Shown here piece after piece: positions 2,934 through 13,471 of a stretch of 20,138 nucleotides of DNA. The notes under the pieces were generated by a model. It did no database searches. It saw nothing but the letters and a program-made list of their open reading frames with translations, and had not been told where the DNA came from. This DNA comes from a virus, in IMG/VR virus record IMGVR_UViG_3300042485_004773, positions 1 through 20,138 of that record. One strand, 5' to 3'. Within the stretch, counting starts at the first letter, position 1, and the number at the start of each line of letters is the position of its first letter. The position numbers were made by a program, and so were the translations under genes.

Positions 2934-3010
2934 CGGGGAATAGCTCAGCCTGGTAGAGCACTGTCTTCGGGAGGCAGGGGCCGGAGGTTCGAATCCTCTT
3001 TCCCCGACCA
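2934..3010 (+). tRNA. tRNA-Pro (anticodon CGG)
   Basis: A 77-nt cloverleaf. The acceptor stem CGGGGAA pairs with TTCCCCG; the first pair C1-G72 is the bacterial tRNA-Pro signature. The D arm is GCTC-AGCCTGGTAGA-GCAC. The anticodon stem CTGTC/GGCAG holds the loop TTCGGGA, so the anticodon is CGG, reading CCG, with G37. The T arm contains GGTTCGAATCC. The discriminator is A and CCA is encoded. An integrase follows 7 bp downstream, so the tRNA 3' half is the likely phage integration site and has been left intact by the insertion. Confidence 0.97.
2970..3010 (+). other. Probable attachment site (att core in tRNA-Pro 3' half)
   Basis: Tyrosine integrases commonly use the 3' half of a tRNA gene as attB. 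Here the integrase gene ends 7 bp past the CCA and points toward the tRNA. The exact core cannot be set because the duplicated copy at the other prophage end lies outside the window. No second copy of the tRNA 3' end was seen within it. Confidence 0.6.
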
Positions 3011-3016
3011 CATTTA

Positions 3017-4327
3017 TTAAGCATTTCGTCCTCCATGGATGATTTTAAGTCCGGTGATGCTCCGGCGAAAGGCGCCGGGAGCCTTCACCTCAATCTCGTC
3101 GATAATCTGCTCTGTCACGGCCAGGGCATTGGTCAGGTAACCCGCCTCGAACGCCGCATAGATGTCGGACGTTTTCGAGTGGACCCGGTGGCCCAGCATC
3201 ATTTGCCCTTCCACCCAAAGCGCCTCGCCCAGACGGCTACGCGCGAGCTTCGCGATCGATCGGCGGATCAGCTTCTGCCCGGTCTCGCCGTCGCGCGGCA
3301 GGCGCAGTTCATCCTGCATTCCCTCGAACGCCGTGCGAATCGATAGCGGCCCGACATAGAATCCTACGGGCGCCGCCTTGAGGTGCTCGACCAGCTGGTG
3401 AGCCACGGGCACGACCGGGCGGTATTTCTTCGTCTGCGGCCGGCCGCGCTGGTTGAGCGCGAGGGCGCGGATGTCGGGATACCATTGCCGGCGCTCGGGA
3501 TCGGTCGACACATCATAAGCAGCGTCCGGCCGGCACCAGGTCGCGACGCTCACGCGCAGGAAGCGCAGCAGTGCCTCCCGGTAGGCAAGCTGGCGATCAT
3601 AGGCCTTGTCGCTCATGCCGGCGGCGCGTGGCGGCCGGAGGCAATAGTTGAACATCTCGGCCAGCTTGGCGATGTCGGCGCGATATGCCGGCGTCTCGCT
3701 CACCTCGTCGGGCTTCTTCGCCTGGAAGGCTGCGGCATAGGGCGTATCGCCCCGGCCGTTGGCGTGGTTGATCGCGGCGCTCAGCGCGCGGACCGACCCT
3801 TCGACGGTGCCGGCGGTGCGATCACCCAGCACCTTGCCCGCGCTCGACACGACCGGCACCTCGAAAGCCCAGTCCCGGAAATCGTCGATCCACTCCTCGT
3901 TGACCTGGTCGCAGGTGGTATCCAGCCGCTCGGTCTCGATCAGATAATTCGACACATGGGCCAGCCGCGCCTTGATCGACGTCAGCGACGGCTTCTTGCG
4001 GACCGAGATCAGATAGTTGGACATGGCATCGACCAGCGGATGCGGCGGCGCGCCGACGACGAGCTGGCCGCAGGCCGCGCAGATCAGCTGCCCGCGCTCG
4101 CGTTCTACGTAGAGGGCGTCGAGCCGTTCCTCGGCTTTCCCGACATCCGCTGTGCCCGTCGATCGCGACCGGACGCGTCGGCGCTCGACGTCGTACCAGA
4201 AGATGTAGAGATGGGGGGAGCGGAGCGAGCCGTCCGACCGGCGGTCCCATCCGAGCCAGTATTTTGGTCGCCCGAGGCTGGTTGTCCCCCTGGTATAGAG
4301 CGGCTCTTCATGGTGCGGGTCAGGCAT
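3017..4327 (-). CDS. int: Tyrosine-type site-specific integrase
   Basis: A 436-residue tyrosine recombinase that should join phage and host att sites. The N-terminus (1-90) has the arm-binding-like pattern LYIFWYDVERRRVRSRSTG plus a CAAC cysteine pair. A SAM-like core-binding part (about 95-200) follows. The catalytic part shows Arg266 (WCRPDA), Lys300/301 (TKKYRPVVP), Arg355 or 356, His380 (MLGHRVHSKTSDIY) and the nucleophile Tyr390. The usual first His of the H-x-x-R box appears to be Lys352 (KLIRR). The gene is the last of the leftward operon and ends beside tRNA-Pro. Its 5' end overlaps the preceding gene by about 220 nt in another frame, and GAGAG lies just upstream of the ATG. Expression from the leftward promoter links integrase to the repressor. 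Confidence 0.92.
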   Translation of the reverse strand: MPDPHHEEPLYTRGTTSLGRPKYWLGWDRRSDGSLRSPHLYIFWYDVERRRVRSRSTGTADVGKAEERLDALYVERERGQLICAACGQLVVGAPPHPLVDAMSNYLISVRKKPSLTSIKARLAHVSNYLIETERLDTTCDQVNEEWIDDFRDWAFEVPVVSSAGKVLGDRTAGTVEGSVRALSAAINHANGRGDTPYAAAFQAKKPDEVSETPAYRADIAKLAEMFNYCLRPPRAAGMSDKAYDRQLAYREALLRFLRVSVATWCRPDAAYDVSTDPERRQWYPDIRALALNQRGRPQTKKYRPVVPVAHQLVEHLKAAPVGFYVGPLSIRTAFEGMQDELRLPRDGETGQKLIRRSIAKLARSRLGEALWVEGQMMLGHRVHSKTSDIYAAFEAGYLTNALAVTEQIIDEIEVKAPGAFRRSITGLKIIHGGRNA

Positions 4328-8762: not shown

Positions 8763-9050
8763 ATGAGCGGGAGGACGGTTTACAGGGCTGTTTGTCTGGG
8801 TCGGCCGATAGGGCCGTGGCGCAGCTCGCTGAGGCAGGTGCATCGCGATCTGATGGAAGAGGGGCTGGGGCAGTACAGCGAATGGAGCCGCACGTTCTAC
8901 GTTACCGTGCCCGGCGATATTCAGCACGCATGGAGAAGCGATGTCCAGCGCGCGAACCAATCACATGCGGGAAGCGCGCCAAATAACCCGGCCGATGATA
9001 CGAAAGCCGCCGCCGCTGATCGGGATATCCTGGTGCGACGGGTTGCTTGA
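8763..9050 (+). CDS. Small protein convergent with the repressor gene
   Basis: 95 residues from the ATG at 8763; an ATG at 8751 in frame is the alternative. GGGGTG lies just before the ATG. The first 60 residues have a phage-like pattern: YRAVCLGRPIGPWRSS, then RQVHRDLMEEGLGQYSEW, then RTFYVTVPGDI. The tail is low-complexity and its last 90 nt lie antisense to the 3' end of the repressor gene. It is the only rightward gene between the left operators and the repressor. No function recognised, and no clear promoter was found. Confidence 0.6.
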   Translation: MSGRTVYRAVCLGRPIGPWRSSLRQVHRDLMEEGLGQYSEWSRTFYVTVPGDIQHAWRSDVQRANQSHAGSAPNNPADDTKAAAADRDILVRRVA

Positions 9051-9584
9051 ACAGGGGACCAGCCGCGCCGGGCTTTCCTGGTATTGCTTGAAGGTGGTCT
9101 CACCCTCCCCGTTTTCGACGACATAATAGCGACCCGGCCAGAGATCGAGATCGGTCGGGTCAATAATGATCGTGGATTTATCGGGAACGACGAGATCCAT
9201 GGAATCACCGTCGACCGTGAGCGCGTAGGCGCTGGACGGCAGGGACGGATCGGGCGAGGGAATGGAACGCCGCGCGCTGCTGATAGCCTCACGCCAATTG
9301 CCGCCGGGAACTTCGCCCAGCAGCGGGATGGGCCGCGCGGCTGGTGGCGCATCTTCTTGCATTCCTAGCCACGCAGCGACCGCAGGCATCTCGTGCTGCT
9401 GCACGCGACGATTGCCCTTGATCACCTCCGCTATGCGCGCCGGGGCAACGCCAATGTGAGCAGCAAGCTCGTTCTGCTTGAACATCTTGGCGGCCCACTG
9501 GCGGCGCAGCTCAGCGACAATTTCATCATGATTCGGCACTGGGATACATTGCGAAAATCGTAATGGGTGGTCGATGACGGACAT
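8961..9584 (-). CDS. S24-family prophage repressor (CI/LexA-like)
   Basis: 207 residues. An N-terminal helix-turn-helix lies at about 33-60 ([20 protein letters not shown], then VIKGNRR). The S24 domain has [10 protein letters not shown] as the cleavage region, Ser128 ([10 protein letters not shown]) and Lys166 (ETTFKQYQ) as the catalytic dyad, and the ending FRIIGRVIW. It should bind the five palindromes around it and be cleaved on RecA activation. The usual Ala-Gly scissile bond appears as Gly-Gly (residues 94-95). The ATG at 9584 is chosen because AAGGA lies 9 nt upstream; a GTG at 9539 would start nearer the HTH (192 residues) but has no ribosome site. With the ATG start, two operators fall within the start region and first codons, allowing self-repression. 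Confidence 0.9.
9548..9564. promoter_or_regulatory. Repressor operator O3 (right)
   Basis: ATTGCGAA-A-ATCGTAAT. The right half is perfect and the left half matches at 6 of 8. It lies within the first codons of the repressor gene if that gene starts at 9584. Confidence 0.7.
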
Positions 9585-9590
9585 CGTAAT
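9574..9590. promoter_or_regulatory. Repressor operator O4 (right)
   Basis: ATGACGGA-C-ATCGTAAT. The right half is perfect and the left half matches at 5 of 8. It covers the repressor ATG at 9584. Confidence 0.65.
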
Positions 9591-9596
9591 CAATCC

Positions 9597-9624
9597 TTGC
9601 GAAAAATTACGGTAATCGTAATAT
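9597..9624 (+). promoter_or_regulatory. Rightward early promoter (P_R-like)
   Basis: -35 TTGCGA (9597-9602), 16-bp spacer, -10 TAATAT (9619-9624). Operator O5 fills the spacer just as O1 fills that of the leftward promoter. The expected start point, about 7 nt past the -10, falls on the ATG at 9631. Confidence 0.7.
9606..9622. promoter_or_regulatory. Repressor operator O5 (right)
   Basis: ATTACGGT-A-ATCGTAAT, with the left half matching at 7 of 8 and a perfect right half. It covers the rightward promoter. Confidence 0.82.
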
Positions 9625-9630
9625 GGCGAA

Positions 9631-9849
9631 ATGCGGAACGCGGCAGAAATAGTAGAAGCGCTTGGCGGCACGGTTGCTGTCGCCAATGCGCTGGGCATCG
9701 CACCAACGACGGTATCGAGCTGGAAGAAAGCCGGCCGGATACCCCCATGGCGGGTGCCAGTCATCCGTCAAATGGCCGAGAAATCCTCGATCGCGCTGCC
9801 GGACATCTCCCCGCCTATCGCAACCGCAACGACATTTCCAACAGATTAA
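9631..9849 (+). CDS. Cro/YdaS-like DNA-binding protein
   Basis: 72 residues. The N-terminal helix-turn-helix is clear: [20 protein letters not shown], then [17 protein letters not shown], then [10 protein letters not shown]. This is the YdaS-like or Cro-like pattern of phage antirepressors that act on the same operators as the repressor and favour lytic growth. No ribosome site precedes the ATG, and the promoter -10 ends 7 nt before it, so the mRNA may be leaderless. It is the first gene of the rightward early operon and divergent from the repressor. Confidence 0.85.
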
Positions 9850-9896
9850 TCATCTTTTGTTCACCCATCGTTCCATTTTTGTACAGCGGGGACCAC

Positions 9897-10460
9897 ATGT
9901 CTGAGGGCAGCATCGCAGCGGACCAGCTTCGTCTTCTGATCGAGCGCATCGAGCGGCTGGAGGAAGAGAAGAAGGGGATCAGCGACGACATCAAGGACGT
10001 CTATCTGGAAGCCAAGGCGACCAGCTACGACCCGAAGATCATGCGCCAGATCATCCGCCTGCGCAAAATGCAGCCGCACGACCGTCAGGAAATGCAGGCG
10101 GTGCTGGAAACCTATCTCTCCGCGCTCGGCATGGAAGACGGCCCCGGCTGCCAGCCGGACATGTATGAAGGCCATGACGGCCGGCCCGAACCGAGCAAGC
10201 CCGCCCCTGCCCCGACGGCAGACGATGCGGAACGCTTCACGGCGGCGCTGAGCCTAGTGGTGGATCATCAGAACGCGTCCGCCTCGTGGCTGCAGCGTCA
10301 GATGCGCATCGGCTATAACAGCGCGCAGCGGCTGATCGAAGAACTGGAGCGCAAGGGCGTGGTGGGTCCGCCCAACCATATCGGCAAGCGCGACGTGCTG
10401 ATCCCGGCCGGTGGACAGGCGCAGGCGGCATTGCAGGCCATGCACGAGGCGGCTGGCTGA
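9897..10460 (+). CDS. GapR (DUF2312) domain fused to an FtsK gamma-like winged helix
   Basis: 187 residues. Residues 8-79 match GapR/DUF2312: [20 protein letters not shown], then [13 protein letters not shown], then [10 protein letters not shown] and a helix ending YLSALGM. GapR binds overtwisted DNA ahead of moving polymerases and works with gyrase and topoisomerase IV in Caulobacter. After a linker (about 80-108), residues 109-170 match the FtsK gamma domain: [17 protein letters not shown], then [20 protein letters not shown], then [20 protein letters not shown]. In FtsK this winged helix reads KOPS sequences and contacts XerD. The fusion is unusual. It is the second early gene after the Cro-like gene and overlaps the methyltransferase start by 1 nt (TGATG). 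GGGGA lies 5 nt before the ATG. A role in phage DNA topology or replication is inferred. Confidence 0.88.
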
Positions 10461-11164
10461 TGCTTGATGTCACCACACCCGCGGTCGTGACGATGGATCA
10501 TGCCACGCTCTATCTCGCCGATGCCAACGAGCTGCTGCACCGCCTCGGTCGTGTGCTGCTGGTTGCCGACCCGCCCTATCTGTTCGACAATTCGGGCGGC
10601 GGCGCTTTTCGCGCTGCGCGTGGCGCATCGGACCAGATCGTTGCGGAGCGGCTGGACGAGGGCTTCGATCACAGCATCATCAATCCGCTGCTGCATCCCA
10701 GCGTCGTCGTGTTCTGCCACAACGACCAGTTGCCCGAACTGCTCGCCTATCTGACTGGCAATTACCGCCGGGTGTGCGTGAACGTGTGGATCAAGCCCAA
10801 CCCGTCGCCGCATCGGAACAAGCATTATCTGGCGGACACGGAGTTCTTCATCCACGCCTGGCAGGAAGGCCATCACCCGGTTGGCGATCACCACGACATG
10901 CACCGCCATGTCACCGCGCGCAGCCAGCCGTCAAAAGTCCACGACCATCCCACGGTGAAGCCGGATGCTGTGATGGAAAAGATCATCGCCAATATGGGCG
11001 AGGGCATCATCTGCGACCCGTTCATGGGCACCGGCTCGACTGGCGTCGCAGCGGTCAAGGCCGGCCGGACGTTCATCGGGATCGAGCATAATCCCAAGCA
11101 TTTCGCCACCGCTGTCGAACGGCTGCGGCTGGCCCATGAGCAGCGTCCCCACGCGCCACCCTGA
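10460..11164 (+). CDS. Orphan DNA methyltransferase (beta class, N6-A or N4-C)
   Basis: 234 residues. Motif IV DPPY (37-40) comes first and the SAM-binding motif DPFMGTGSTG (186-195) last, the beta-class order. The segment HPTVKP (163-168), typical just before motif I in this group, is also present. It should methylate adenine N6 or cytosine N4 in a short site that cannot be predicted from the sequence. No restriction enzyme gene is nearby, so it is an orphan enzyme, likely protecting phage DNA or tuning gene expression. Translation is coupled to the GapR fusion by a TGATG overlap. An alternative ATG at 10493 would remove 11 residues. Confidence 0.9.
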   Translation: MLDVTTPAVVTMDHATLYLADANELLHRLGRVLLVADPPYLFDNSGGGAFRAARGASDQIVAERLDEGFDHSIINPLLHPSVVVFCHNDQLPELLAYLTGNYRRVCVNVWIKPNPSPHRNKHYLADTEFFIHAWQEGHHPVGDHHDMHRHVTARSQPSKVHDHPTVKPDAVMEKIIANMGEGIICDPFMGTGSTGVAAVKAGRTFIGIEHNPKHFATAVERLRLAHEQRPHAPP

Positions 11165-11906: not shown

Positions 11907-11969
11907 CGAGGCTGAGATCAGCGGGTGCCATATGCAAATCGAACTGCCCTTTCATCAGGAGTGCGCCAC

Positions 11970-12416
11970 ATGTCGCGCATGACGCCGCGCGCCCGGCTGG
12001 AGCAGCGCCTGATCGCCGAGGGCAAGCTGGCTCCGCGCGACACGAAGACGCCTGCCCCGCTCAAGGGCAAGGATCGCCTGTTCGCGCTGGGCCGCCTGAA
12101 GACGGGCGAGAAGAACAAGTCAGAGCAGCGCTTCGAAGACGAGATCCTGCGCCCCGGCATGATGGCAGGCGATATCCTCTGGTACCGCTTCGAGGGCATC
12201 AAGCTGCGCCTGGCCGATAACACCTTCCTGACCGTTGATTTCGCGGTCATGGGTGCCAACAGCATCATCACGATGATCGACGTCAAGGGCAGCGAAGCCG
12301 TCATCCAGGAAGACGCGCGCGTGAAGATGAAGGTCGCCGCCGAAGCCTATCCCTTCCGGTTCCAGTTCGCGTTCCCCGGCAAGGCCGGCTGGACCTATGA
12401 GGATGTTGGGGCATGA
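11970..12416 (+). CDS. DUF1064-type, PD-(D/E)XK nuclease-like protein
   Basis: 148 residues from the ATG at 11970, with GGAG 9 nt upstream; an in-frame ATG at 11925 would extend it by 15 residues without a ribosome site. The core reads NKSEQRFEDEILRPGMMAGD, then YRFEGIKLRL, then FLTVDFAVM, then ITMIDVKGSEAV and later VKMKVAAEAYPFRFQF. Asp90 (VDF) and Asp104-x-Lys106 (IDVKG), preceded by acidic residues near 55-58, fit a PD-(D/E)XK nuclease site. Related phage proteins are thought to act on replication or recombination intermediates. It couples to the replication initiator by an ATGA overlap, which supports a replication role. Confidence 0.82.
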   Translation: MSRMTPRARLEQRLIAEGKLAPRDTKTPAPLKGKDRLFALGRLKTGEKNKSEQRFEDEILRPGMMAGDILWYRFEGIKLRLADNTFLTVDFAVMGANSIITMIDVKGSEAVIQEDARVKMKVAAEAYPFRFQFAFPGKAGWTYEDVGA

Positions 12417-13471
12417 GCTGGGAGGCTGAGAACTGGGCGCGCCAGCAGCGCACCGGCGACCCCGTCACCAAGGCGGTGCTGGTCGGCATCGCGAACTGGA
12501 TGAACCCCAAGGGCGACGAGTGCCAGGTGTCGATGCGCCGGCTTGCGGACGAGGTCGAAATCTCGGTCCGCACCGCGCAGCGCCATGTCCAGCGCCTCGC
12601 AGAGCTGGGCTTTATCGTGAAGTCCGACGCGGTGCGCAGTGACGGCGGACAGGGCTGGAACAGCTTCAAATTCCCCGGCTACAAGCCGCCCCGCGTCAGC
12701 CATGTTGAACCGCCTGCGAAGGTCGATAACCCCCATGACAATTTGACAGGGGGGGAGGGTGACAAATTGACACCCCCCCATGACAAATTGACACCCTCCC
12801 CCGCGACAGATTGTCATGGGGAGGGTGACACAGCTGTGTCAGGGGAAGGATCTGATAAGGATAATAATATCCCCCCTATAGCCCCCCAGGGGGCAAAAGA
12901 CCCTGCCGAGAAGCGAAATCGGGGAAGTCGGATTCCGGCGGACTGGAAACCGCCAGCGCTCACCGACCTCCCGCCTGCTGCCATGGCCAAGGCTCGCCAA
13001 TGGCCTGCCGGCGCCTACGAGGCCGAGGCAGAAGCGTTTCTGAACTTCTGGCTGGCTGAGGCGAGCGGCCGCGCCTGCAAGCTCGACTGGGACAAGGCCT
13101 GGTGTACCTGGATCAACCGATCGACGGGGCAAATCCTGCGCGATGCCCGCTCCGGCGTCCAGCACAGCGCGCCGTCGTCCACGCCCCGCCCTGCCCTGCC
13201 TGCCAAGGCCCACGATACCAGCCGTGAGAACGGCGCGGCGGCGAAGATCCGCACGCTGGTCAAAGCGAAGATCGGCGATCAGCAATATGACCGCTGGGTC
13301 GCGCCGTCCCGGCTCGACATCGATGCCGGCACGATGACGGCCGTGGCGGTCAGCAGCTTCGCCAGCAATTATCTGCGCGACAATTTCGCCAACGACCTGG
13401 CGCAGGCGATGCACGCGGTGCTCGGCCCCGACGCCGAACTGCGCTTCGCCAATGAACAGCCACCGGCGTGA
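12413..13471 (+). CDS. Phage replication initiator: winged helix plus DnaA-N-like domain
   Basis: 352 residues. Residues 15-90 form a replication-type winged helix: VTKAVLVGIANWMNPKGDEC, then QVSMRRLADEVEISVRTAQRH, then VQRLAELGFIVK. Residues 105-145 are a repetitive linker (HDNLT, DKLTPPHDKLTPSP) encoded by the iterons. Residues 175-235 carry the DWKPP ... FLNFWLAEASGRACKLDW ... WINR pattern common to phage replication proteins. The C-terminus (275-340) resembles DnaA domain I or its relatives in replication proteins: AAKIRTLVKAKIGDQQYDRW, then LDIDAGTMTAVAVSSFASNY and LRDNFANDLAQAM. It would bind the intragenic origin and recruit host helicase machinery. The start has an ATGA overlap with the nuclease-like gene. 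Confidence 0.87.
   Translation: MSWEAENWARQQRTGDPVTKAVLVGIANWMNPKGDECQVSMRRLADEVEISVRTAQRHVQRLAELGFIVKSDAVRSDGGQGWNSFKFPGYKPPRVSHVEPPAKVDNPHDNLTGGEGDKLTPPHDKLTPSPATDCHGEGDTAVSGEGSDKDNNIPPIAPQGAKDPAEKRNRGSRIPADWKPPALTDLPPAAMAKARQWPAGAYEAEAEAFLNFWLAEASGRACKLDWDKAWCTWINRSTGQILRDARSGVQHSAPSSTPRPALPAKAHDTSRENGAAAKIRTLVKAKIGDQQYDRWVAPSRLDIDAGTMTAVAVSSFASNYLRDNFANDLAQAMHAVLGPDAELRFANEQPPA
12736..12816 (+). repeat. Iterons of a probable phage origin
   Basis: Direct 13-bp repeats: TGACAATTTGACA (12736-12748), TGACAAATTGACA (12760-12772), the same again (12781-12793), and a degenerate CGACAGATTGTCA (12804-12816, 10 of 13). The start-to-start steps are 24, 21 and 23 bp, about two helical turns. G- and C-runs separate them. 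They lie inside the initiator gene, as in lambda O. Confidence 0.8.
12826..12841. repeat. 16-bp perfect palindrome beside the iterons
   Basis: TGACACAGCTGTGTCA reads the same on both strands. It starts with the same TGACA element as the iterons, so it may be an inverted initiator site. Confidence 0.7.
12845..12882. other. A+T-rich patch, candidate unwinding element
   Basis: A stretch with GATAAGGATAATAATAT and CTATAG directly follows the iterons and palindrome. It is markedly A+T-rich for this G+C-rich region, and G- and C-runs bound it. It could be the DNA unwinding element of the origin. Confidence 0.5.

Follow-up and report, generated by a model that had tools for sequence, protein, structure and literature searches.

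A recurrent phage protein joining a GapR domain to an FtsK gamma winged helix

Gene content of the locus

The window, by which we mean the whole stretch of DNA analyzed here, covers 20,138 nucleotides of the IMG/VR record IMGVR_UViG_3300042485_004773. From position 1 to about 3010 it is host-like, with genes for 2-oxoisovalerate dehydrogenase E1 alpha (PF00676, E = 2e-98) and thymidylate synthase (PF00303, E = 6e-100), and a tRNA-Pro (CGG) gene (2934 to 3010, plus strand) lies at the border between host and prophage. Adjoining the tRNA gene is an integrase-like ORF (3017 to 4327, minus strand), the likely attachment end, which has a weak match to phrog_1 (E = 2.5e-4) and none in Pfam. Farther in are a gene for a CI-like repressor with an S24 peptidase domain (8961 to 9764, minus strand; PF00717, E = 4e-18; phrog_4) and a cro gene for a Cro/YdaS-type helix-turn-helix (HTH) protein (9631 to 9849, plus strand; PF15943, E = 6e-8; PF14549, E = 3e-7). 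The listed start of the repressor gene overlaps cro, and its true start is probably further in.

Directly downstream of cro, where the first-pass annotation had placed it, is the gene under study (9897 to 10460, plus strand), which encodes a GapR-FtsK gamma fusion of 187 amino acids (aa). Like the first-pass annotation, we start the gene at the ATG codon of 9897; an alternative in-frame ORF with a GTG start (9567 to 10460) overlaps cro, and relatives aligned to the fusion, with starts picked by hand, have Met at the position of 9897. The fusion's stop codon is overlapped by the start of an N6/N4 DNA methylase gene (10460 to 11164, plus strand; PF01555, E = 1e-15), which is followed by genes for a Holliday junction resolvase-like protein (11925 to 12416, plus strand; phrog_190, E = 1.5e-18) and an O-like replication initiator with HTH_36 and DnaA_N-like parts (12413 to 13471, plus strand; Pfam and PHROG), and then by small terminase and head-tail connector genes (Pfam and PHROG). 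We place the fusion gene in the early region of a temperate phage. Its host was probably a sphingomonad, since fusions of 68 to 76% identity are present in Sphingobium genomes (L219 in S. sufflavum and L220 in Sphingobium sp. Leaf26).

A relative of the methylase was found at 13 of 19 loci with the window's domain order (GapR-gamma), 1 of 20 with the opposite order (gamma-GapR), and 4 of 25 with GapR only, and the C-terminal part of the initiator was found at 12 of 19, 0 of 20, and 0 of 25, respectively, these loci being unequal in length. The initiator was also searched for in 298 whole host-family genomes; no match was obtained, and as the search had no positive control, this result carries no weight. 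The neighbors of gamma-bearing phage genes include methylases, resolvases, RecT, and SSB.

Domains, structure model, and residues of the fusion

The first-pass annotation had read the protein as a GapR (DUF2312) half followed by an FtsK gamma half, and profile searches bear this out. GapR_DNA-bd (PF10073) matches residues 7 to 78 (9915 to 10130, plus strand; E = 1.7e-33; 114 bits against a cutoff of 22.6), and FtsK_gamma (PF09397) matches residues 110 to 169 (10224 to 10403, plus strand; E = 7.8e-23; 80 bits against a cutoff of 30.6). These are the only Pfam families above cutoff in the 187-aa fusion; a TrmB match was subthreshold, and the scan returned no RecA-type motor domain of FtsK/SpoIIIE translocases. 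The 18-letter gamma motif cited in the earlier reading is present in the protein. In NCBIfam, the GapR-type subfamily PRK13694 was matched (110 bits against a cutoff of 94), and the matches to the GapR equivalog and the PRK10263 FtsK model lay below their cutoffs. By sequence, the best PDB entries were 6cfy for the GapR half (E = 7.7e-22) and, among FtsK gamma structures, 2j5p for the gamma half (E = 4.9e-11). The top PHROG match of the fusion was PHROG 4212 (150 bits, in two stretches), a family given with neither function nor architecture, which is perhaps built from gamma-GapR proteins, a guess based on how long it is and where GapR lies within it. The two-domain match lies far outside what chance could produce, and the searches also recovered relatives carrying this pair of domains.

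An AlphaFold2 model of the fusion, built from a 39-row alignment, had a mean pLDDT of 77.4. It contains three helices in the GapR part (residues 3 to 41, 46 to 57, and 60 to 76) and a winged helix at residues 110 to 167, preceded by a Pro/Ala-rich linker (10131 to 10223, plus strand) that was modeled with low confidence and carries a GHDGRP motif in close relatives. The gamma part matched FtsK gamma of Pseudomonas aeruginosa (Foldseek, E = 1.2e-5 at best) and superposed on the KOPS-bound structure 2ve9_A with a Z score of 12.7 and an rmsd of 1.1 over 62 residues, and the gamma assignment of the first-pass annotation therefore held in this structural check as well. The PDB fold matches listed for the window model were winged helices over residues 107 to 187, and the GapR half was assigned by sequence.

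Caulobacter GapR (UPF0335/DUF2312, PF10073) is a protein of 89 residues without a second domain, and the fusion has in common with it the domain itself by sequence, the three model helices, and helix 3. GapR touches DNA without base-specific contacts (PMC7498317), whereas the window protein adds a domain of a sequence-reading type. GapR is further characterized by a preference for overtwisted DNA and by stimulation of gyrase and topo IV. When the contacts given in the available text of PMC7498317 (K34, K42, K49, K56, K59, K60, R63, and K66) were placed by hand via an ungapped PDB alignment, seven of the eight positions were found to be basic in the fusion (K25, K33, K40, K47, R50, R54, and K57), the exception being Q51. 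GapR tetramers are driven by helix 3, as stated in the accessible part of PMC7373187. This helix (residues 60 to 76) is present in the fusion model, and the tetramer of the fusion is a prediction.

The window gamma keeps the equivalents of Escherichia coli R1289, N1296, R1300, E1303, and E1306. Across 34 fusion gammas, N1296, which we take to be a KOPS-reading residue, is kept in 33, E1303 in 33, E1306 in 32, and R1300 in 24, with Lys in 7 more and Q, G, or L once each in 3. R1289 is kept in all 34, a constancy that is partly built in, as the search pattern LQRQ favored the QR pair that includes it. These counts cover 34 of 45 fusion gammas, with the E. coli numbering laid on the motif by hand; the 11 fusions left out here and from the tree described below were mostly near copies (L174, L176, L181, L182, L197, L203, L213 to L215, L220, and L305), L217 was left out of both as well, and L333 stood outside the residue counts. 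In E. coli FtsK gamma, KOPS recognition involves R1300, E1303, and E1306 (PMC2680272, available text), and R1289 forms a salt bridge with XerD (PMC5052618, available text). Compared with the gamma domain (PF09397) of FtsK/SpoIIIE proteins, the winged helix is the same and the reading residues are kept, whereas the motor and membrane parts are absent from the fusion.

Both domains are under purifying selection: against eight relatives, dN/dS was 0.06 to 0.21 for GapR and 0.03 to 0.38 for gamma, with 0.21 to 0.62 for the linker. Within the linker, a GHDGRPxPxxPAPxP-like motif (10170 to 10214) is still recognizable in the more distant fusion L305.

Recurrence of the fusion and gamma on other phage proteins

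Scanning the IMG/VR viral contigs with gamma alone gave 45 loci, 39 of which have GapR and gamma in a single ORF (18 GapR-gamma and 21 gamma-GapR), a share that is biased upward because the scan patterns were derived from fusions and that includes some near copies. Domain order was assigned by reading the scan results and was confirmed for L186 by a separate Pfam scan. The six loci without GapR are L198, L199, L201, L216, L217, and L218 (three scanned singly and the others by reading). In a set of 51 proteins, biased in the same way and made up of the window protein, the 45 scan loci, L219, L220, L305, and the proteins of Ruegeria phage 45A6 and Rhodobacter phage RcMeacham, Pfam found FtsK_gamma in all 51 and GapR in 45. 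In this tally across phage genomes, of the kind that the first-pass annotation had called for, the fusion recurs in both domain orders. A control set of 41 records (38 with GapR only, plus the initiator controls L300, L305, and L307) had gamma above cutoff in L305 only, itself a fusion, and none of the 38 GapR-only records, which may include fragments, had gamma above cutoff as a separate gene; the record of L050 has a subthreshold gamma match. Phages with GapR alone were common among the fetched loci, and a second scan of the viral contigs returned mostly matches to the GapR half. When plasmids were searched with the fusion of a relative (L178), none of the 276 matching records covered 80% of it. 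FtsK_gamma is present in 365 of 385 alphaproteobacterial genomes, among the matches listed mostly in ORFs of FtsK length.

The two named phages, Ruegeria 45A6 and Rhodobacter RcMeacham, are cultured, and among the matches listed for the Ruegeria protein, 11 of 20 rows are cultured Rhodobacter capsulatus phages with gamma and GapR in one stretch. The RcMeacham ORF (L003, 4734 to 6059) has two gamma stretches, then GapR, and then a tail that weakly matches RMF. The gamma-GapR proteins L186, L187, L190, L192, and L194 have a long linker and a GapR half that has diverged, and they are perhaps a separate subfamily.

A tree of 78 gammas joins the window gamma first to other GapR-gamma proteins of its kind. 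Together with most gamma-GapR proteins and 10 sphingomonad FtsKs, these form one set of 44 rows (95/99), and the gammas of L211, L212, L002, and L003 are placed with 30 other, nonsphingomonad alphaproteobacterial FtsKs. Approximately unbiased (AU) tests over 64 columns do not reject a single clade for all fusions (P = 0.14), for GapR-gamma (P = 0.09), or for gamma-GapR (P = 0.14), and we accordingly rejected the tree as proof of repeated gamma capture. Separate captures are nevertheless likely because the two domain orders are opposite; it is this arrangement, and not the tree, that suggests them.

The fusion is not unique in carrying gamma outside FtsK, as gamma also occurs on RdgC, on a beta-clamp fold, and on the small terminase (TerS). 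A tblastn search with the gamma half matched 374 phage records, and partners were looked at in a few. In Vibrio phages D79 and HY01, gamma is joined to RdgC (PF04381, E = 1.4e-29 and 5.4e-95, respectively; for HY01 also PDB 2owl, E = 2e-83), and a gamma protein of Pseudomonas phage CF126a is RdgC by annotation. Dimers of RdgC are rings with a pore for DNA, according to the accessible text of PMC11077077. The gamma protein of Gordonia phage Ewald is annotated as a sliding clamp and as FtsK-like, with PF02767 just under cutoff (E = 2.6e-5) and PDB clamps from E = 0.00095. Mycobacterium phage ThulaThula gp56 (L312, 664 to 1728; 354 aa) is annotated as an "FtsK-like DNA translocase," and Pfam finds in it gamma only and no motor. 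The L346 ORF (2001 to 3062) matches gp56 at 100%; its model is weak (mean pLDDT of 52, with block means of 60 to 84 over residues 1 to 150), and in Foldseek its best 50 matches are all titled beta clamps but one, a mismatch repair complex entry, with a best E value of 9e-4 and the remaining matches above 0.001. The best-aligned structure was 3t0p_A (Z score of 15.3, rmsd of 2.7, 162 residues). From this model, gp56 looks like a sliding-clamp fold followed by FtsK gamma. At least 80% of the L346/ThulaThula-type protein is covered in 99 phage records, and its relatives L357 to L361 were matched over the clamp part only. About 100 mycobacteriophage-type genes, several of them annotated as FtsK-like translocases, may thus be motorless clamp-gamma proteins.

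TerS with gamma is known from Bacillus phages Sam46 and Sam112 (PMC8190038, available text), and a BFVD search returned Sam46 TerS among its matches (E = 2.8e-3). Like the window protein, this is a phage gamma fused to a DNA-handling protein; in the same text the partner is the small terminase and gamma is N-terminal, whereas the window gamma is C-terminal to GapR. In the four RdgC-gamma and clamp-gamma proteins examined (D79, HY01, Ewald, and ThulaThula), gamma is likewise on DNA-encircling proteins, several of them near recombination or replication genes, and it is C-terminal, while the partner folds differ from GapR. Several gamma partners elsewhere are themselves replication or recombination proteins. 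Beyond recognized rings, the gamma partners of L198, L199, L216, L313, and L314 lack a family match over part of their length, gamma in L311 is in a 105-aa ORF, L217 is a short ORF, and L218 is a polyvalent protein. L313, L216, and L005 have an N-terminal domain without family before gamma, and the two from Pseudomonas, L313 and L005, are annotated as FtsK. In L201 (4323 to 7523), gamma lies between Prim-Pol and D5_N in a 1,066-aa primase-helicase-like ORF.

The first-pass annotation knew of no described protein with this architecture, and our search of the open-access PMC literature agrees, having found no description of GapR-gamma, RdgC-gamma, or clamp-gamma proteins. In their available text, PMC12185513 presents a phage GapR as the first one, and PMC8190038 states that what single phage FtsK_gamma genes do is unknown. 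The window protein therefore appears to be an undescribed but recurrent two-domain phage protein within a wider pattern of gamma on DNA-encircling proteins.

KOPS octamers and possible roles of the fusion

The octamer GGGNAGGG was counted in 48 phage records, and the groups were compared. KOPS density did not differ between GapR-gamma phages (0.246/kb, 15 records) and GapR-only phages (0.226/kb, 17 records; P = 0.82) and was lower in gamma-GapR phages (0.177/kb, 16 records; P = 0.007). The major-strand fractions were 0.82, 0.88, and 0.90 for GapR-gamma, gamma-GapR, and GapR-only phages, respectively, against 0.65, 0.77, and 0.71 for a reversed-pattern control. With density the same or lower and polarity present with or without gamma, KOPS enrichment was rejected as a sign of gamma function. 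A strand bias in host DNA was likewise left unused: in contig C1 of G050, to 214 kb, 47 of 54 GGGNAGGG matches among those listed are on one strand, a weak signal with codon usage uncontrolled and no readable switch point.

Within the initiator gene lies an iteron array (12730 to 12830), a putative phage origin composed of TGACAAATTGACA units and GGGGAGGG octamers. Three exact GGGGAGGG KOPS occur there in 74 bp (12752 to 12825), at 12752 (plus strand), 12794 (minus strand), and 12818 (plus strand), and at least one is present in the iteron stretch at eight of nine GapR-gamma loci with the window's initiator type. Both observations would fit a fusion whose gamma reads the iteron octamers in the O-like gene and helps to open or decatenate the phage origin. 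This reading failed its control and is very unlikely: L300, a record without a gamma match, has three octamers arranged as in the window, and L307, likewise without a gamma match, has one, whereas L305 is a GapR-gamma locus with none in its iterons and L007 and L008/L220, GapR-gamma loci with another initiator type, have none. The origin octamers follow the N-terminal type of the initiator, not gamma, which may or may not use them.

We propose instead that the fusion is a GapR-type DNA clamp with an address reader, loaded at or beside KOPS-type sites in phage replication or recombination, a reading to which we give about an even chance. GapR oligomers would grip DNA without base specificity, and gamma would read GGGNAGGG-type octamers with three gammas per site, as three FtsK gammas bind KOPS, with the ring loaded on one side (PMC5052618 and PMC5357621, available text). 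A GapR tetramer bearing four gammas would have the valency for one octamer, as the hexamer gives in FtsK, and it is this gain in valency, together with the address that GapR lacks, that leads us to the proposal. Loading would then take place early in the lytic cycle, on DNA of the phage, the host, or both, and the fusion would handle overtwisted DNA during phage replication or recombination. More generally, gamma may serve phages as a portable loading address on GapR, RdgC, the beta-clamp fold, and TerS, as for the FtsK ring. More tentatively, FtsK gamma could be a mobile loading address put repeatedly on sequence-blind DNA-encircling proteins (the GapR clamp, the RdgC ring, the DnaN-type sliding clamp, TerS, and perhaps a primase-D5 helicase), with the rings loaded at oriented octamers; the window protein might then be a sequence-addressed topology sensor, an undescribed kind of nucleoid protein. 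The pairing of gamma with GapR in both orders, with RdgC, and with the clamp fold condenses into one testable idea, the sequence-directed loading of DNA rings, and since cultured phages of R. capsulatus and Mycobacterium smegmatis encode such proteins, it is testable now.

The early position of the gene would also suit a decoy in host takeover, in which the fusion sits on host KOPS or on XerD, blocking FtsK-guided segregation and dimer resolution, or in which it triggers XerCD in the absence of FtsK. The equivalent of R1289 is kept throughout the fusion gammas, bearing in mind the pattern that favored it, and a 9-aa gamma stretch suffices for XerD activation (PMC5052618, available text). By the same source, however, every gamma residue that touches XerD also touches DNA, and conservation cannot tell the two roles apart. 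For integration, the phage has no evident need of XerCD because its own integrase-like gene, weak as the match is, lies beside the tRNA gene, and Xer alone leaves unexplained why phages of unrelated hosts carry gamma on RdgC, the clamp fold, and TerS. We therefore regard the decoy as unlikely and favor sequence-addressed loading over a host-dimer-specific role, as both domain orders recur and gamma is found on those other partners. The functional guesses of the first-pass annotation (steering of host topology, the chromosome-dimer machinery, or placement of the phage genome relative to host KOPS) are possible, as the KOPS-reading residues and the XerD arginine are retained, although this retention singles out none of them.

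A transcription regulator, in which a GapR nucleoid protein with an operator-reading winged helix switches early or late phage promoters, is quite unlikely in our view. The fusion adjoins cro, gamma is a DNA-binding winged helix, and the available text of PMC7824862 names T4 DsbA as a GapR homologue. DsbA might bring RNA polymerase to late promoters. Against it, the initiator iterons hold the sole group of at least two KOPS within 200 bp in the 12 kb of the window examined around the gene, the octamers nearest to the fusion gene are one in the repressor gene (9103) and one in the fusion's own linker (10205), and replication and recombination proteins recur among gamma partners elsewhere. That neighboring domains were joined by chance, with gamma dispensable, is most improbable: the abundance of GapR-alone phages among the fetched loci would allow it, but both domain orders recur, gamma has a dN/dS of 0.03 to 0.38 against eight relatives, and the reading residues are mostly kept.

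The linker octamer is an exact GGGCAGGG (10205 to 10212, minus strand) within Pro/Ala codons, and L006, L007, and L008 have a GGGNAGGG match at the same offset.
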